Below, piece after piece: positions 18,801 through 59,425 of a stretch of DNA of 64,000 nucleotides. The stretch is taken from positions 159,483,290 to 159,547,289 of the forward strand of contig NC_134834.1 of NCBI RefSeq assembly GCF_004210375.1, in the 5' to 3' direction. This DNA comes from Tachypleus tridentatus (taxonomy: Eukaryota > Arthropoda > Merostomata > Xiphosura > Limulidae). The notes below the pieces were generated by a model, which had not been told where the DNA came from, made no database searches, and worked only from the letters and a program-made list of their open reading frames with translations. The first letter of the stretch is position 1. The number at the start of each line of letters is the position of its first letter. Made by a program: the position numbers and the translations under genes.

Positions 18801-21800
18801 TTAACCTTAAAAAAGAACTTGTATTTTACCTTCATATTAAATGTTTTTTGTGGGGGTATTGGATTGGCTATTTTGCTTACAGAGTTAAATATTATACACA
18901 AATTTATTATGCCAACTATTTGATCTTTAAAAGTGGTTGATGAATATTTTATTGAGAATATATTTTTATTAAAAACAAGGCTATTATATTTAAATCTATA
19001 TAATTAGAAAACAACGGACACTGATAATGCTCAGACCCATCCTCCAGCACCACCAATACCCGAGCTTCCAGAAAGCATGAACCGACAACCTGGGGACATT
19101 AGAAACAAGAATCCAGATAGGTTGAACAATAAATATTCCTTTTTAAAGTTATTTGTAAGGGATAACTAAGGTATAGCATTTTTGCATTAGTAGTTTTAGA
19201 TAACTCTTCACAAACATCTTTTTTGTGCATGTCATGAGGTTTCAGTGAGTTACATTCAAAATTTAATTAAACTAGTTTCATTTCATGATATTCCAACAAT
19301 TATTGCATAGAAACATGTTTAATAATCCATATTTTAATAGTATTTCAGTTTGAAGTTCTTTTTATTAGGCAATATTTAAAAATATATCTAGAATTTTCCA
19401 CAGTGTGGTAATTGTGACATTTACTTTCTAGTATCTCTTCTTCTTTAATTTATTTAACACCCCTTCAAGAAGTATGAACTTTAATGTAAATTAATTGTTA
19501 TGATATCATCTCTCAGCCAAAGCATAAATTTCATAGCCTTCCATTTTATTTGATAACAGAACCATGAATTAGACAACTACACCATTTTTGTTACACCCAC
19601 CTGTCTCTTCATTTCCAGAAATTACCAATAGTTCTCTCTGTTATTTATAAGCAACAGAAAAAGCCAAGGTTTTCATCAATCAAGTGATGTATTATATTGA
19701 TTTTTGTAAAGAGAATTGTCATTTTCATTTTCAATTCAAGCTTGATTCCTTTGAAAAATTCATTGACAAGCATTGACAAATTTTTAATAGCTGTTACTGC
19801 ATAATTGGAAAGTCAAAACAATTGTGATAGTTAAGAGACATTGTTTAACTTTTGTACATTACTACTCTATGTTCTTTGATGTATTATGTACTTAAATAAA
19901 AATTTAGTGCAGAACTACCATTAGTATGAAAAAGGTATGGATAAGTGCCATCAACAGTATATATATATAAATATAAAAAAAAGACCCAGGTAAGTACCTT
20001 TTTCATGTTTTTCCCTGTGTATTCTTTATCTGTTATTATACAAGTAACTAAAGTGTAAAAATATGAAACTTGTGTCAGTTATAGTTAGATTAGGTGAAAT
20101 AAGTATGAAAAACTTTTTTATAAGGTATGTTTGTGAGTAGTTTTTGTGAAATGTAATTTAGTAGTGTAAGATGAGACAAACATTTGTCAAGTGATTTTAT
20201 GAGATATAGCAGTCCAAATAGTAATTAGTCAGGGTTCAAAGGGCAGTAAAACAATAAATAGATGTACACTGTTATGAGTTTAAGCTATTTATGATAAACA
20301 ACTGTAGTTTCATATGACAGTATGAAGTCATTCTAGAAACTGAATATGGTAATTTAGATTTATTTTTATTGTTTTTGGTGATAATGAGGTCAGTCAAATT
20401 GACCAATCTTGTATTAAGTTAGGATAGAGAAAATAACAGATAAAACATCAAGTTTTACAAAAAAAAAAGTTTGAAATAGGAGGTTTTAAATATTATGTTA
20501 ATAAAATGAAATTTTTGAAATGAAGTAAAGTATTTTTAATCTTAATATGAAAATCACTTGGCACTTGGACTAGTATGTAGAAATGCTATATATATTCACG
20601 AAAAATCTTTAAAAAATATTTCATCAAAGAATCTGGTTTTTTGTGTACAGAAGACTTGTAATGCTTACTAAAAGTTTCTCAAATTTTGTAAAGATACACA
20701 TATTAAAAACACAAAAACTATAACAATTGCAAAACAGCTATAAAGCTGGTCCTTGAATTTGAGCTTGTAGTGAGAGAGTTACTGTGGCTAACATACAATT
20801 GAATATAAGCACAACAATAATATTTAAATTTGATATTTTCAAATGAAAAAAGCAACATTTTTTTAACTTCATATTTTAAACAAGCACATATCATAAACCT
20901 TGGAGGTTTTTAGCTTTAATCTGTTTATATGCTATTGTCACATGTTTGTCTTTTGTTGTCACCTTTTTACCTGTTTCTAGGAGGTGCAGATGCTACAACT
21001 TTTCATACTCCATCTTCTTACACTACAGATAATTATATGTTATGAATTGTAAATATGTCTGTACTCTAGTTACCTTTAAGAAAATGTCATTGTTTTTCAT
21101 AAACTATTTTTATTTATATATACTCTCAAAAAAAGAAACGCAAAAGGCAGAATTTGAGACATATAGTTAACAAGTTTATTCCAGGTAGTTCTGTATGACA
21201 TGTGTGAAACTTTGCACATTCACTGCTGAACATCCAAAGTCTGCAAAGGCGAAGTTCATGCTCACTAGGTGAAGTTTAATGTCACTCAACGTCAATAACA
21301 AGTATGTCCCCCGTGAGCATCAATAACTGCTTGGCATCTCCTGCCCATGGAAGCGATGAGATGACGAATCACATCCTGTGGAATGGCTGTCCACTCAGCC
21401 TGCAAAGCTGCTGCAAGCTGAGGTAGTGTGTGCGGTTGAGGTTGTCGCCGTCGCAGACTTCGGTCCAACTCGTCCCAAAGATGTTTTATGGGGTTTAAAT
21501 CTGGTGATCTGGAAGGCCAGGGAAGAATGTTGATGTTGTGGTGTCTCAAGAAGACAGTGGTGAGTCGGGCGTTGTCATGCTGAAAAACGTCGTTGATGTA
21601 CACCATGATGGGTTGCACATGGGGCCTAAGAATCTCATAGACGGTTGTGTACAGTCTAATCGGAAATCCTACGCAGCTCTGGTATGGTTGAGGCAGTAGA
21701 CGTCGCAGTGGTGATCCTATCCCGAAGGTGACGTAATTGGATGTTGCAACCTTGTGCGGGCATGGTCACACGAGGTCTGCCAGATCGTGGACAGTCATGA

Positions 21801-27800: not shown

Positions 27801-30800
27801 TTTAAATTGCGATATGCATTTATACATTTATATTATATAATAATATTACTATTTAATGATGTGCTATTTATTATTTTTCTAATGATTTTTTTACCCTTTT
27901 TAAAAACAATTTCTTAACAGCCACCAGTGAATTAGTCTTAGAAACTTTAGTGGATGTTGTTCATGACCACTATCTCCGTGTTTGTCGTCTAATGAGGGTT
28001 GCAAGGGATAGAGAAGCACTGACCGGAAATACTGCATTTGTGGTCAGTAATTGTTTATTAAAAAGAAATAAGTTCTTAAGATCTTAGATTATGTTTTATG
28101 TTAACTTGCTTTTTAAACTAGTTTTGTAATACATTGACAGCAAAAGATAAGCAAAATACACTAGGATAGGTAAATATTTTGACACATGACTGACTGCATA
28201 CCAAAACTTCCTAGCCTCTGTATGCTTTGTGAAATGTAAAGGTGAACAGCAGGATTTCTTACAGTTTATCTTTTCAGAATTAAATAGGTGGGGTGGCTCA
28301 AAATCATTATTGGATAAAAAAAAAAAAGAGAGCCTAGAAAAATATGTGAAAGTACATGTACTGTATTTATCTCTCTTAATATTATTTTCCATCTGATTTC
28401 TGATTATGGTTGTTACCATCTATTAATGGAAAATTTCTTTCCTACATGTATACTCTTTAAAAAAAGAAATGCAAAAGGCAAAATATGAGACAAATTGTTA
28501 ACAAGTTTATTCCAGGTAGTTCTGTATGACATGTGTGAAACTTTGCACATTCACTGCTGAACATCCAAAGTCTGCAAAGGCAAAGTCCACGCTCACTAGA
28601 TGAAGTTTAACGTCACTCAACTTCAATAATGAGTATGCCCCCCGTGAGCATCAATAACTGCTTGGCAACTCCTGCCCATGGAAACGATGAGATGACGAAT
28701 CACATCCTGTGGAATGGCTGTCCACTCAGCCTGCAAAGCTGCTGCAAGCTAAGGTAGAGTCTGAGGTTGAGGTTGTCGCTGTCGCAGACGTCGGTCCAAC
28801 TCGTCCCAAAGATGTTTTATGGGGTTTAAATCTGGTGATCTGGAGGGCCAGGGAAAAACGTTGATGTTGTGGTGTCTCAAGAAGACAGTGGTGAGTCGGG
28901 CTGTGTGAGGATGGGCATTGTCATGTTGAAAAACGTCGTTGACGTACACCATGATGGGTTGCACATGGGGCCTAAGAATCTCGTAGACAGTTGTGTGTGG
29001 TCTGATTGGAAATCCTACGCAGCCCTGGTATGGTTGAGGCAGTAGGCATCTCAGTGGTGGTCCTATCCCGAAGGTGATGTAACCGGATGTTGCGATCTTG
29101 TGCGGGCGTGGTCACACGAGGTCTACCAGATCGTGAACAGTCACGAGTTGATCCATGTTGTTGGTGATGATTCCATAGCCTTATGATGGTGCTTGGGTGG
29201 ACATTCACAGCTCTGGCAACATCTGATCGAGATTCGCCTGCTTCCAAGCGACCAATGGCGTTATTGCGTTGTGCTTCAGTCAGTCTTGGCGTAACTGTAT
29301 TGCGTGTCGGTGACTTAAAACCAAGAACCCGTCACTTTTATAAGAATTTTGCACATGTTGCACTTGCAGAACATGCAGATCTCTCAAACAAATTTATTGG
29401 ACATGCATGCGTTTTGGCGAAAAATCCGATGTTTTCCTCCGTTTTCAAAATGCACAACTTTTATTGTCATTTTGGTCTAACAATCAGTGCCTTAACACGT
29501 GTAACATCACATACTCTGAGCTTGTAATGTTATTACATATATTTCTCTTTAAAATAACAAAAATACCCCTTTTGCGTTTCTTGTTTTGAAGAGTATATAT
29601 ATCTTTTATTGTAATACATTAAGCACAAGAGTAAAACTATTAGTCCCAGCATAATGATTAAATTGTTGGAAAAAGTTATTTTACATTTCTGTGGAAAGTG
29701 GTAATTTACTAGAAGATGGATTCTAAGACCCATTTGTTTATTTAACTACAGATTATTCCTAATCTTATTGACAAAGTAACCATTGATGTAGTGTATTTGG
29801 TCGTATATGTGAAGATGTGGTAATAGCTTAGTATGGGTCATAACAAGTACTAATTATAAAATGTTTTTTTTCTCAGGAATATTGGACATTTAGGCATGTT
29901 GTTGCACATTTTTAAACTTGGTTATTTTCAATACCATTTACTATATTTAAAAAACAAAATGAAACATTACCACCCAGCAATATCTTTTGTGTTTTGGAAA
30001 ATAGGAATAGTCAGGATTATTTTTAATCATTGTAACTTGACTTATTGGTCATAAAACTGATTGTTAAGTATCAGCCTGTTATTAATAAAACTTATTTATG
30101 AACTTTGAACCCTTCTGTGTCTTGTGTTTAATAAAAGAACTGCCAAATGGATATTATTTTTATGTGATCTTAGTGCCTGATTATATTTTAATGTTTAAAT
30201 CTCCCACAATTTAAAAAATAATTTCAAAAATGTGTTTATTGTTGCTTATGATTGTATTCTTAAAATGTTAAAGTAAAAGTTTGGATTGATGCCTTCCCAT
30301 TTTTGTTCAAGTTGTATATTCAGTAGACTAACTGATACACATTATGAAGTAATATACAGACTAGAGATCTTAAAATGTCTAATCTATTGATGCTTCTGTC
30401 ATACTTGGCCATGAGATTATAAGATGTGTAGGGCATTATAATGTTGTGGTCAATCCCACTATTTGTTGGTAAAAGAGCAGCCCAAGAGTTGGCAGTTTAC
30501 AGTGCTAAGTTAGGGATGGATAGCACAGATAGCCCTCATGTTGCTTTGCATGACATTCAAAAATAAACATGACAACCTATGTCAAACAAGTTTCATTTTT
30601 TTAAGGATTTGTGTCAAACAGGTTTTATCCTTATTCAGGATCTGTGTTTTTGTTATAAAACCTGAAGCGTGAGAGTTTATCAAGGTTACATGTATTTGAA
30701 AATACATAAGAGTCATAAAATGGTATGTGTAGACGTGTGATATTAAGAGTAATCTCTAGCACTTCTCACAAAAAAATGAGTAAAACAAATAAACAAGATA

Positions 30801-44563: not shown

Positions 44564-45564
44564 TACCCTTGTGTAAATTAATTGAAACAAATGGTCATTT
44601 TACAATATTTTCAGCATGGCGGCCGGTGTAGGCTCGCTGGATCCGCTTATTTCCTTTAATCGTCATTTTTTTCACACAGACGGCGTCATTAGCTGTTTTC
44701 TGCAGTATGGTCGATCTATTTTTGGGATATATGACGAAATTTTGAGGAATATTACGTCATTCGAAACTGCGTTAGAAGGGCAAGGAGACCAGTAAAAAAA
44801 AAAAAACAACTTCTTATCAACCCAATGAAGAAAAAACGGTATCAATGGGGTCTGAAATACAATAATTGGACGCAAGAACAATGGAGGAAGGTGTTATTCA
44901 GTGACGAGACTCATTTCTTCGTACAGGGTCAAAGAAGTCTGCATGTTCACAATCTCCAGGTGAGAAACTTCGAGAATCTCACATCAATCAGTTCGTAAAA
45001 CATCCCTTGAAGAAGACGTTTTGGGGCTTTTTCAGCTACTATGGCGTCGGAGGCTTTCATATCGTAGAAGGTATGATGCGAGGACCACAGTACATCGAAG
45101 TTTTGCAGAGAAGAGTTGTTCAGAAATTGAAAAAAAGAGATTTCCAGATGGATCTGGCATTTTTCAGCAAGATCTGGCTCCGTGCCACACATTGAAACTT
45201 GTGAAGAATTTTATGACTACAACACGAATAAAGGTGCTGGACTGGCCTGGAAACTCTCCGGACTTAAATCCTACTCAAAATCTTTGGACGATTTATAAAG
45301 AAAAACTTTGGGGAAAAGATTGTGCTACGAAAGATAAGCTAATTGAGGCCATAATTGAGGTGTGGTACCGCAATCCAAAAATTAGTAAAAATTGCAGTCA
45401 AATCGTGGACTCAACGCCAAAGCAGATTAATGATCTTCTGAAAAATAAAGTCGGTCATATCATGTATTAATTTGCGAGTAATTTTTAGATTCTCAGAAAT
45501 AAAACGCAAAAAATTGAAAAAATCGTAATTTTCTGTCTTGTTTCTATTAATTTGCACAAGGGTG
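44564..45564 (+). mobile_element. Tc1-like element, second family, 5'-deleted
   Basis: 1001 bp with inverted ends (TACCCTTGTGTAAATTAATT and the complement of AATTTGCACAAGGGTG) and TA on both sides. The full-length family should be about 1.6 kb, so the N-terminal DNA-binding part is missing. Confidence 0.88.
44850..45470 (+). pseudogene. Tc1-like transposase catalytic-domain pseudogene
   Basis: VLFSDETHFFVQGQ (first catalytic Asp, about 44894-44935), then stops, then HPLKKTFWGFFSYYGVGGFH (45001 on) and PQYIEVLQRRVV, then a frameshift near 45145 into FPDGSGIFQQDLAPCHT (second Asp) and WPGNSPDLNPTQNLW, ending GHIMY and stop at 45468-45470. The third catalytic residue is Gln (PTQNLW where PIENLW is usual). 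At least two stops and one frameshift: inactive. Confidence 0.85.
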
Positions 45565-58395: not shown

Positions 58396-58743
58396 AGGAT
58401 TCTATCACATGGAATGAATTCCTTTTAAATAGTAGTTGGAGTAAAATGTATTACTCCAATAGTTAATTCCCTGTAGCACTTGTAACAACCGCCTAAAAAA
58501 TGAGAAGAAATTAATGGACCAGATTTTTTTATTGTTGCGTTATTGTTTACTTTATTTTTTTTGTATATTTTTGGGTTGTCTTTGCTGAGGCTTATTTCGA
58601 TTTGTCGTATTAACTGTATTTGATCCTGATGAACAACATTAAACAAAGTATTCTTTCTCAGTGATGTCGAGAAAACCCACTAGTAGAGAAATATATATGC
58701 AAAAACGGTTCGTTTGGGTTGAGAAAATATTTTACGTGGAAGA

Positions 58744-58785
58744 GCGAACAACGTTTCGACCTTCTTCGGTCATCGTCAGGTTCAC
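58744..58785 (-). ncRNA. Hammerhead ribozyme, minimal stem III (dimer type), intact core
   Basis: On the minus strand: GTGAAC, CTGACGA, TGACC-GAAGAA-GGTC hairpin, GAAAC, GTT, GTTCGC. GTGAAC pairs with GTTCGC over 6 bp (one G-U) as stem I, GACC/GGTC forms stem II, and CUGANGA plus GAAA are both exact. Cleavage would follow GTT. Stem III is only the self-complementary ACGT, as in the Penelope-associated hammerheads reported to cleave as dimers. Confidence 0.75.
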
Positions 58786-58879
58786 AAAGAAAGAAAAAGG
58801 TAACTGACCGGAAGCTGACCACATGTTTGGAAAGGGTTGTGTAACTGAGTGTCGAAATGTAGAGGGCGGTGTTAGATGT

Positions 58880-59220
58880 TTGAATATATAATTTATATTA
58901 TTTATTTTATTATATTTAATATAGATATAAAGGCGTTCCTTTATATTGGTTTGTTTTGGGTTTAAGTTGTTGTATAAGTAAATCTTCTTTAATTTTGCGT
59001 TTGTTTATGTTTGTTTTTTATTTAGTATTTGAGTGTTTTCTATGGTTATGTTGTGTTAATTTGACTTGCAGTGTTCGAAAACGTGTGAAGGTGACTTTTA
59101 TGTTATTTGAATCTGGTTTCCATTTTTCTACTTCTATCTCGAATATAGAAGTCGTGGCAGTTATCACATTGTATTTTATAAATAATGTTGGTGTGTTGTT
59201 TGTCAGTGTTCTTTGTGAAT
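58880..59220 (-). pseudogene. GIY-YIG endonuclease C-terminal domain of a Penelope-like element
   Basis: Minus strand from 59220: TNIIYKIQCDNCHDFYIRD (the GIY...YIG block with its CxxC insert, last Gly changed to Arg), SRKMETRF (with the helix Arg), a stop where Glu-His is expected, HTFSNTASQIN, a frameshift near 59050, then NINKRKIKEDLLIQQLKPKT, NQYKGTPLYLY and the natural stop near 58920. Order and spacing fit the C-terminal EN of Penelope-like elements. It cuts target DNA in intact relatives. This copy is dead. Confidence 0.85.
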
Positions 59221-59256
59221 CTGACGATGACCGAAGAAGGTCGAAACGTTGTTCGC
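59215..59256 (+). ncRNA. Hammerhead ribozyme, second inverted copy
   Basis: Same layout on the + strand: GTGAAT, CTGACGA, GACC/GGTC hairpin, GAAACGTT, GTTCGC. The only difference in the core region is a U-G pair beside the core instead of C-G. Confidence 0.72.
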
Positions 59257-59425
59257 TCTTCTACGTAAAATATTTTCTCAACCCAAACGAGCCGTTTTTG
59301 CATAAATAAAGTATTCTTTCTGTAGTTTTAACAGGCTAAATCCTCCAGACTCGCTGAGACAGAACAATATTTCGACCTTGTCAATGGGGTCTTGCGGTAA
59401 TTCAATGTAAGTTTTAGGATTTGCA

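Follow-up and report, generated by a model that had tools for sequence, protein, structure and literature searches.

The 64-kb stretch of DNA analyzed here (hereafter the window) contains a 649-bp insertion (parts compiled in Table 1), which is a short, dead copy of a retroelement common among animals. Read along the minus strand, it runs from an inverted pLTR (59307-59209) through an endonuclease remnant, the end of the element ORF (stop at 58916) and the 3' UTR into a direct pLTR and a terminal tail. The two arms (58692-58791 and 59209-59308) are complementary at 96% over 100 nt, and the final base of the second arm (59308) overlaps the target duplication. The perfect 14-bp duplication reported around 58659-59307 by the initial annotation was confirmed, and a 14-bp identity at the same spacing was encountered in 5 of 200,000 random placements within the window. 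Because the duplication extends to 19 bp with one mismatch (58640-58658 and 59303-59321), the tailless boundary can be placed only to within a few bases.

Table 1. Features of the insertion and its borders, in window positions.
Feature	Position	Strand	Remarks
Target-site duplication, left	58645..58658	.	AAAGTATTCTTTCT; exact match
PLE insertion (sequence-based class), entire, 649 bp	58659..59307	-	element sense strand is the minus strand
Tail, 33 bp	58659..58691	-	at this outer end only; ends ...GACATCACTG; 115 nt from the hammerhead-internal ATG (its A)
pLTR, tailed (direct) arm	58692..58791	-	match to inverted arm
Hammerhead-like motif, element-sense	58744..58785	-	descriptor match; stem I GUGAAC/GUUCGC, stem II GACC/GGUC, stem III AC/GU without a loop; cut predicted after GUU
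3' untranslated stretch, AT-rich, tailed arm	58792..58915	-	
Element ORF, C-terminal end	58916..59017	-	..KIKEDLLIQQLKPKTNQYKGTPLYLY stop; by-eye match to relatives L045 and L022
Presumed GIY-YIG endonuclease remnant	59106..59210	-	..IIYKIQCDNCHDFYIRDRSRKMETRFK then stop; R in place of the G of YIG; by-eye match to L022 and L045
Head-to-head inner junction of the two arms	59208..59209	.	1 nt overlap
Inverted arm, tailless, pLTR alone	59209..59307	+	outer end 81 nt from its own ATG
Hammerhead-like motif, antisense to element ORF	59215..59256	+	descriptor match; core as in the element-sense motif; stem I GUGAAU/GUUCGC
Target-site duplication, right	59308..59321	.	AAAGTATTCTTTCT; exact match

The window tail is a rare variant (CTAGTGGG..), its 20-mer having 28 exact matches in the genome versus 4,566 for that of the common tail. 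Just beyond the right target duplication, AGACAGAACAATATTTCGACCTT at 59357-59379 is an 83% copy of the hammerhead region of the pLTR and perhaps represents an older, decayed PLE remnant. Elsewhere in the window lie decayed Tc1/mariner-like transposase pieces at 21292-21765 and 28972-29331 (both minus strand) and 44964-45470 (plus strand), the first and last with DDE_3 matches and the second with helix-turn-helix matches.

Penelope-like elements (PLEs) form the third class of eukaryotic retroelements. The assignment of the insertion to this class by the initial annotation was borne out by its pLTR/tail anatomy and target duplication, and by the RVT_1 domain (Pfam) of the reverse transcriptase (RT) matched in the relatives L022 and L046 at 6.2e-07 and 1e-11, respectively; the window copy has lost its RT through truncation. 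Downstream of the RT in longer relatives, a motif YIGETSRKMETRFKEH, which we take to be of the GIY-YIG type, was recognized by eye (L022 and L045), and its window equivalent, YIRDRSRKMETRFK-stop, is a broken version of it. Pfam returned no match in the 35-aa window remnant and no GIY-YIG profile match in the relatives; on the by-eye alignment with L022 and L045, we regard the endonuclease remnant named by the initial annotation as probably real. Judged by its sequence features, namely pLTRs with an optional tail and a 14-bp target-site duplication, the element would be filed as a PLE of the Penelope/Poseidon type.

Exactly two matches to a hammerhead descriptor (CTGANGA, GAAA, stems I-III) were obtained in the 64-kb window, one in each arm. 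As read by the initial annotation, both motifs are 42 nt long and inverted to each other, with intact cores. In each, stem I has 6 bp, stem II has 4 bp and stem III has 2 bp without a loop; the predicted cut would fall 24 nt past the ATG in the window copy. Since matches in 60 Markov surrogates reach a maximum of 2 (mean 0.17), the descriptor alone is modest evidence, and the convincing part is the placement of the motifs in homologous arms. An Rfam hammerhead match, set beforehand as a test, was absent from the whole window at gathering score, and between 58500 and 59500 at E values up to 10 no hammerhead was returned, the single match being to an unrelated sRNA model (E 3.5), so that the test formally failed. 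The likely reason is the stem III without loop, a variant for which Rfam is uninformative. The descriptor covers the features that define a minimal type I hammerhead (core CUGANGA/GAAA, stems I and II), and PLE hammerheads of this type, with a conserved core and without helix III, are on record in the papers cited, where they are described as cleaving as dimers (PMC6155905, PMC7761336). The two window motifs are accordingly best called hammerhead-like rather than proven members of the family.

The usual cis dimer needs two motifs of the same sense, whereas the window insertion offers one sense and one antisense motif; the opposite orientations support the earlier expectation that read-through yields one ribozyme of each kind per transcript. 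In the predicted minimum free energy fold of the entire element, 41 of the 42 hammerhead nucleotides (sense) and 42 of 42 (antisense) pair with the other arm, which makes plausible, in silico, the masking of both ribozymes by fold-back that had also been proposed. With one sense motif per transcript, no stem III loop for folding alone and an antisense arm that pairs, the window hammerheads are probably silent. Among the 62 fetched loci described below, 69 of 92 pLTR hammerheads have intact cores, and both hammerheads are intact in 18 of the 29 loci having both orientations; intact cores are not special to the window copy. Core letters are kept no better than other letters (conservation 0.979 vs 0.977 in 91 arm copies), and dispersed copies therefore show no ribozyme selection.

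The PLE-type hammerhead pattern was also sought in other contigs. Viral contigs gave 0 matches with the narrow form and 7 with the wide form, the latter having an uninterrupted stem I of 0-2 bp and being dismissed as chance. Two places in prokaryote contigs, both on LJHE01000041.1 (labelled Epulopiscium single cell), carry the same 31-nt hammerhead-like motif with GAAACGTT and a 4-bp stem I at a repeat period of 5.4 kb, and perhaps represent host DNA.

Relatives of the insertion number thousands in the host genome (2.17 Gb, 205 contigs), where a pLTR 20-mer has 12,888 exact matches and a tail 20-mer has 4,566 (reversed controls, 0), and where a whole-element search gave 5,065 first-look candidates, 40 of which were scored. 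We assembled a set of 62 copies, oriented by sense, from the window copy, 39 relatives obtained with the whole-element query and 22 of 33 new ones obtained with a tailed-pLTR query. A tailless arm faces a tailed arm in 33 of these 62 copies, 32 recognized by chained matches and one (L066, arms 1.7 kb apart) assigned by hand. Each of the 33 has one tail, in a set picked by similarity to a tailed arm and, for the two-armed sample, for at least one tail; the direct arm carries it in 32 copies, the inverted arm in L018.

In the two-armed copies, one outer end coincides with the tail end and the opposite one lies 21-54 nt inside it (27-37 nt for 27 of the 32 inverted tailless ends). Some of these distances are shifted by chance matches that run into the target duplication, and the left end of L034 was placed by hand at the inner inverted arm, with another inverted pLTR piece further out. 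The inner ends range over d49-1,357 in inverted arms and d134-2,620 in direct arms (32 measured insertions) and are correlated between paired arms (Spearman 0.46, p 0.008, n=32). Of the 24 insertions with abutting arms, 11 have an overlap of 1-9 nt, 12 have a gap of 1-14 nt and 1 has an exact join. Both outer ends are flanked by an exact target duplication of at least 8 bp in 31 of the 33 two-armed copies vs 4 of the 29 others (p = 5e-11), one of those four (L060) being doubtful as its flank is a tandem repeat; mispaired controls gave such duplications at 0.6% (of 2,013) and 0.7%.

The remaining 29 copies are mostly one-armed and without duplication, plus a minority (L048, L050, L060, L069, L073 and L075) with an inverted upstream segment resembling the product of LINE-1 twin priming. 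In L065, tailed pieces of opposite orientation lie 1.3 kb from each other and are read as two insertions because the direct piece has its own 13-bp duplication. An excess of A (44 of 50) or ATT (17 of 50) following the tail was considered as a target preference and dropped, since the uninterrupted element L055, whose positions 1803-1960 run from pLTR to ORF without a break, reads ATTATT there. The ATT following the tail is thus element sequence, and the outer start of reverse transcription therefore varies by a few bases.

We also analyzed a sample not chosen on the tail, consisting of the first 100 places listed for the pLTR 20-mer on one contig. Close neighbours (<5 kb) formed 29 pairs among these 100 places, compared with a chance expectation of 5.6 in any orientation, and among the matches listed 27 of the 29 pairs are head-to-head (3' ends outward), 1 is tandem and 1 convergent. 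A second word, with a list overlapping the first, gave 20 head-to-head pairs and 1 tandem pair among the matches listed. All 17 head-to-head pairs shorter than 300 bp among those listed were examined as a short class; they represent 15 distinct insertions, because two pairs share their flanks as judged by eye. On contig C1, the same short insertions with their flanks occur twice in opposite orientation (L085/L087 at 7.11/7.40 Mb and L088/L089 at 7.44/7.63 Mb), representing inverted segmental duplications or an assembly effect.

One side is tailed and the other tailless in 15 of the 15 distinct short insertions (by script in 13; by eye in L084 and L088, whose tails are mutated), an outcome with a probability of about 3e-5, by our arithmetic, under independent, equal-odds use of the tail at each end. 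A script detected duplications of at least 8 bp in 12 of the 15, and inspection by eye added those of L084 and L088; in L080 none was found, its tailed side continuing into ORF sequence with the true end unseen. The asymmetry of the tail, which the initial annotation had overlooked, points to a start of reverse transcription at each outer end. The inverted flanks recur in other genomic copies, as the initial annotation had asked to be checked, and the head-to-head arrangement is the commonest seen in the host genome (27 of the 29 listed close pairs; 33 of 62 copies), the usual product of the family and no rare accident. This anatomy is also published (PMC3846280, PMC8969392), and the earlier reading of the copy as a special case of inverted-flank acquisition is not supported: the locus itself is ordinary, and its useful part is the rule at the level of the family.

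The source of the two arms was analyzed with an allele test at 15 subfamily-diagnostic sites (CpG sites excluded) in 18 insertions with inverted arms of at least 200 nt. Minor alleles are common to both arms of one insertion in 68 of 91 comparisons vs 189 of 721 between insertions, and overall agreement is 168 of 191 within an insertion vs 2,101 of 3,192 between insertions. The 23 of 91 comparisons in which a minor allele is unshared within an insertion could reflect mutation after insertion or an origin of the arms from separate RNAs. Plain distances give a less clear picture, the family being star-like: the own partner arm is nearest in 7 of 18 insertions and ranks 29th to 40th of 49 in three.

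Taken together, the fixed outer starts, the free inner ends, the single enclosing duplication and the shared source support two-ended target-primed reverse transcription, as that process predicts. We therefore consider it probable that the window copy belongs to an abundant Penelope/Poseidon-type PLE and is a dead, 5'-truncated member inserted by two-ended target-primed reverse transcription, with RNA of one source as the template. The RT/endonuclease of the element would make a staggered double cut at the target, and both target 3' ends would prime reverse transcription of RNA from one source element, either a single molecule or, conceivably, two. In the window copy, the first cDNA, starting 115 nt from the ATG at the tail end, would extend for ~541 nt through the pLTR, the 3' UTR and the endonuclease, and the second, with its start at 81 nt from the ATG, ~34 nt further in, would cover the pLTR alone. 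The 3' ends of the two cDNAs would then meet and join, leaving the head-to-head insertion, the target duplication and one tail; this anatomy is what the copies display, and the order of events is the part we infer. The two hammerheads would be carried along with the pLTR. Two-ended priming appears common and not universal, because 29 of 62 copies are without the tailless second arm, 25 of them also without a duplication of at least 8 bp.

Several of these features have counterparts in known systems. Rotifer PLEs are described as having inverted pLTRs and target duplications, one of the pLTRs optionally bearing a tail (PMC3846280), and inverted pLTRs with target duplications have been named as peculiarities of PLE copies (PMC8969392). 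The Adineta vaga Penelope PLEs Pen2, Pen2a and Pen3a share inverted pLTRs, 5' truncation and target duplications (8-10 bp in the cases described) with the copies reported here, and their 31-bp tail, optional at one inverted pLTR, resembles the window tail (PMC3846280). They are present in few copies, self-priming was proposed for them, and that report mentions hammerheads nowhere (0 occurrences; PMC3846280); the host genome differs in its thousands of copies, in the one tail of each examined two-armed copy and in the hammerheads of the arms.

A closer match is found in PAc, the Poseidon element of Anolis carolinensis, whose hammerhead at the start of the ORF is cut 26 bp past the start codon (24 here) and whose reverse transcription starts 111-118 bp into the ORF and at a second, adjacent site (PMC11167929), in agreement with the window ends at 115 and 81 nt. 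The same paper identifies the sequence between the two start sites with the "tail", described in D. virilis as an extension of 30-40 bp, and its purified protein cuts and extends both strands in vitro (PMC11167929). In the portions of that study considered here, this in vitro system is not connected to insertions with inverted pLTRs, and the one-tail rule is left unexplained by the assay, because top and bottom strands exhibit no difference in start site in vitro (PMC11167929). An asymmetric RNP may lie behind the different start sites at the two ends. We did not find the inverted pLTRs linked to priming at both target ends in the open-licence literature; an earlier statement elsewhere is possible.

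Alternative routes to the head-to-head structure were weighed against two-ended priming. The one that survives best, although we consider it unlikely, is self-priming, in which a folded-back cDNA serves as its own template, or an antisense template acts as its own primer, to give a head-to-head palindrome, as suggested for rotifer PLEs in the account cited (PMC3846280). Short inverted pieces that nearly touch, by coordinates, the inner end of the direct arm (L048, L050 and L022) would suit it, as would the correlation between the inner ends of paired arms, which is unexpected from two fully independent cDNAs and counts against the two-ended model. Self-priming predicts equal inner ends, whereas in all 32 insertions measured the two are more than 20 nt apart; and the second arm ends, tailless, at its own RT start and not at that of the first arm. 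Several short-class pairs do differ by no more than 20 nt (e.g. L095, 124/125), where the possible range is small. For the long class, self-priming is already contradicted.

In LINE-1 twin priming, both target ends prime on the element RNA, and the inverted part derives from upstream RNA. An origin of this style, in which the second target end primes within the same RNA beyond the first cDNA, suits L060, L069 and L073 and probably L075, L048 and L050, and is quite improbable for the common class. There, and in the window copy, the inverted arm copies again the 3' region of the direct arm, so that the coordinates overlap instead of abutting, and the inverted arm of the window copy begins at the tailless pLTR end and not at an internal coordinate. 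Unlike in LINE-1, both window arms start in the 3' start region of the RNA.

The terminal inverted repeats and target duplication recall a MITE-like short DNA transposon, a reading that is hardly credible, as are two nested insertions or a later inversion. Neither the fixed terminal inverted repeats nor the fixed unit of a DNA transposon or MITE was found: arm length and inner junction vary between copies, no two of the 32 long-class insertions have both inner ends alike, and a shared inner junction occurs among the 17 short loci only in the two pairs with shared flanks. L091 and L094 have two identical coordinates (83, 106) and carry their tails on opposite arms. The ends are unlike, with a single tail, both arms lie inside one duplication, and longer relatives contain an RT ORF.

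A template of self-cleaved RNA, whose ends would be set by the hammerheads, is just as hard to credit: tailless arms end within 2 nt of the cut in 3 of 15 short insertions (L084, L086 and L088), yet none of the 41 chained inverted segments has an outer end near the cut (d90-91; two inverted pieces out of chain, L065 at d0 and L062 at d82, are excluded from the count), 76 of 77 contig C1 places with the 20-mer starting at the cut continue one base upstream (among the matches listed), and, in the Anolis results cited, hammerhead mutants leave insertion in vitro unchanged (PMC11167929). Place-by-place comparison was preferred because, in genome-wide 20-mer counts (7,329 starting at the cut, 8,743 one base earlier), variation at the opposite end of the word acts as a confounder. 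The hint from the 3 short insertions was not upheld by the larger list, and the cut was rejected as the definer of ends.

Returning to two-ended priming, we are inclined, with somewhat less assurance than for the window copy itself, to extend it to a general model in which PLE integration would normally be two-ended and inherently asymmetric: one RNP would use both 3' ends of the staggered cut as primers on RNA of the same source, with two start sites ~34 nt apart, and the 3' ends of the cDNAs would be joined. A single event would then account for inverted pLTRs, "optional" tail and target duplication alike, and hammerhead cleavage would have no part in forming the ends.

The in vitro study cited leaves the later steps of PLE insertion for validation (PMC11167929). 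The regularities counted here, namely outer ends at two start sites, one tail, a duplication tied to the second arm, a shared source and no pile-up of ends at the hammerhead cut, give a specific model that is testable in the existing purified system. Moreover, the data argue that the hammerheads do not shape the inserted DNA, which narrows the range of roles that hammerheads may have in these elements.
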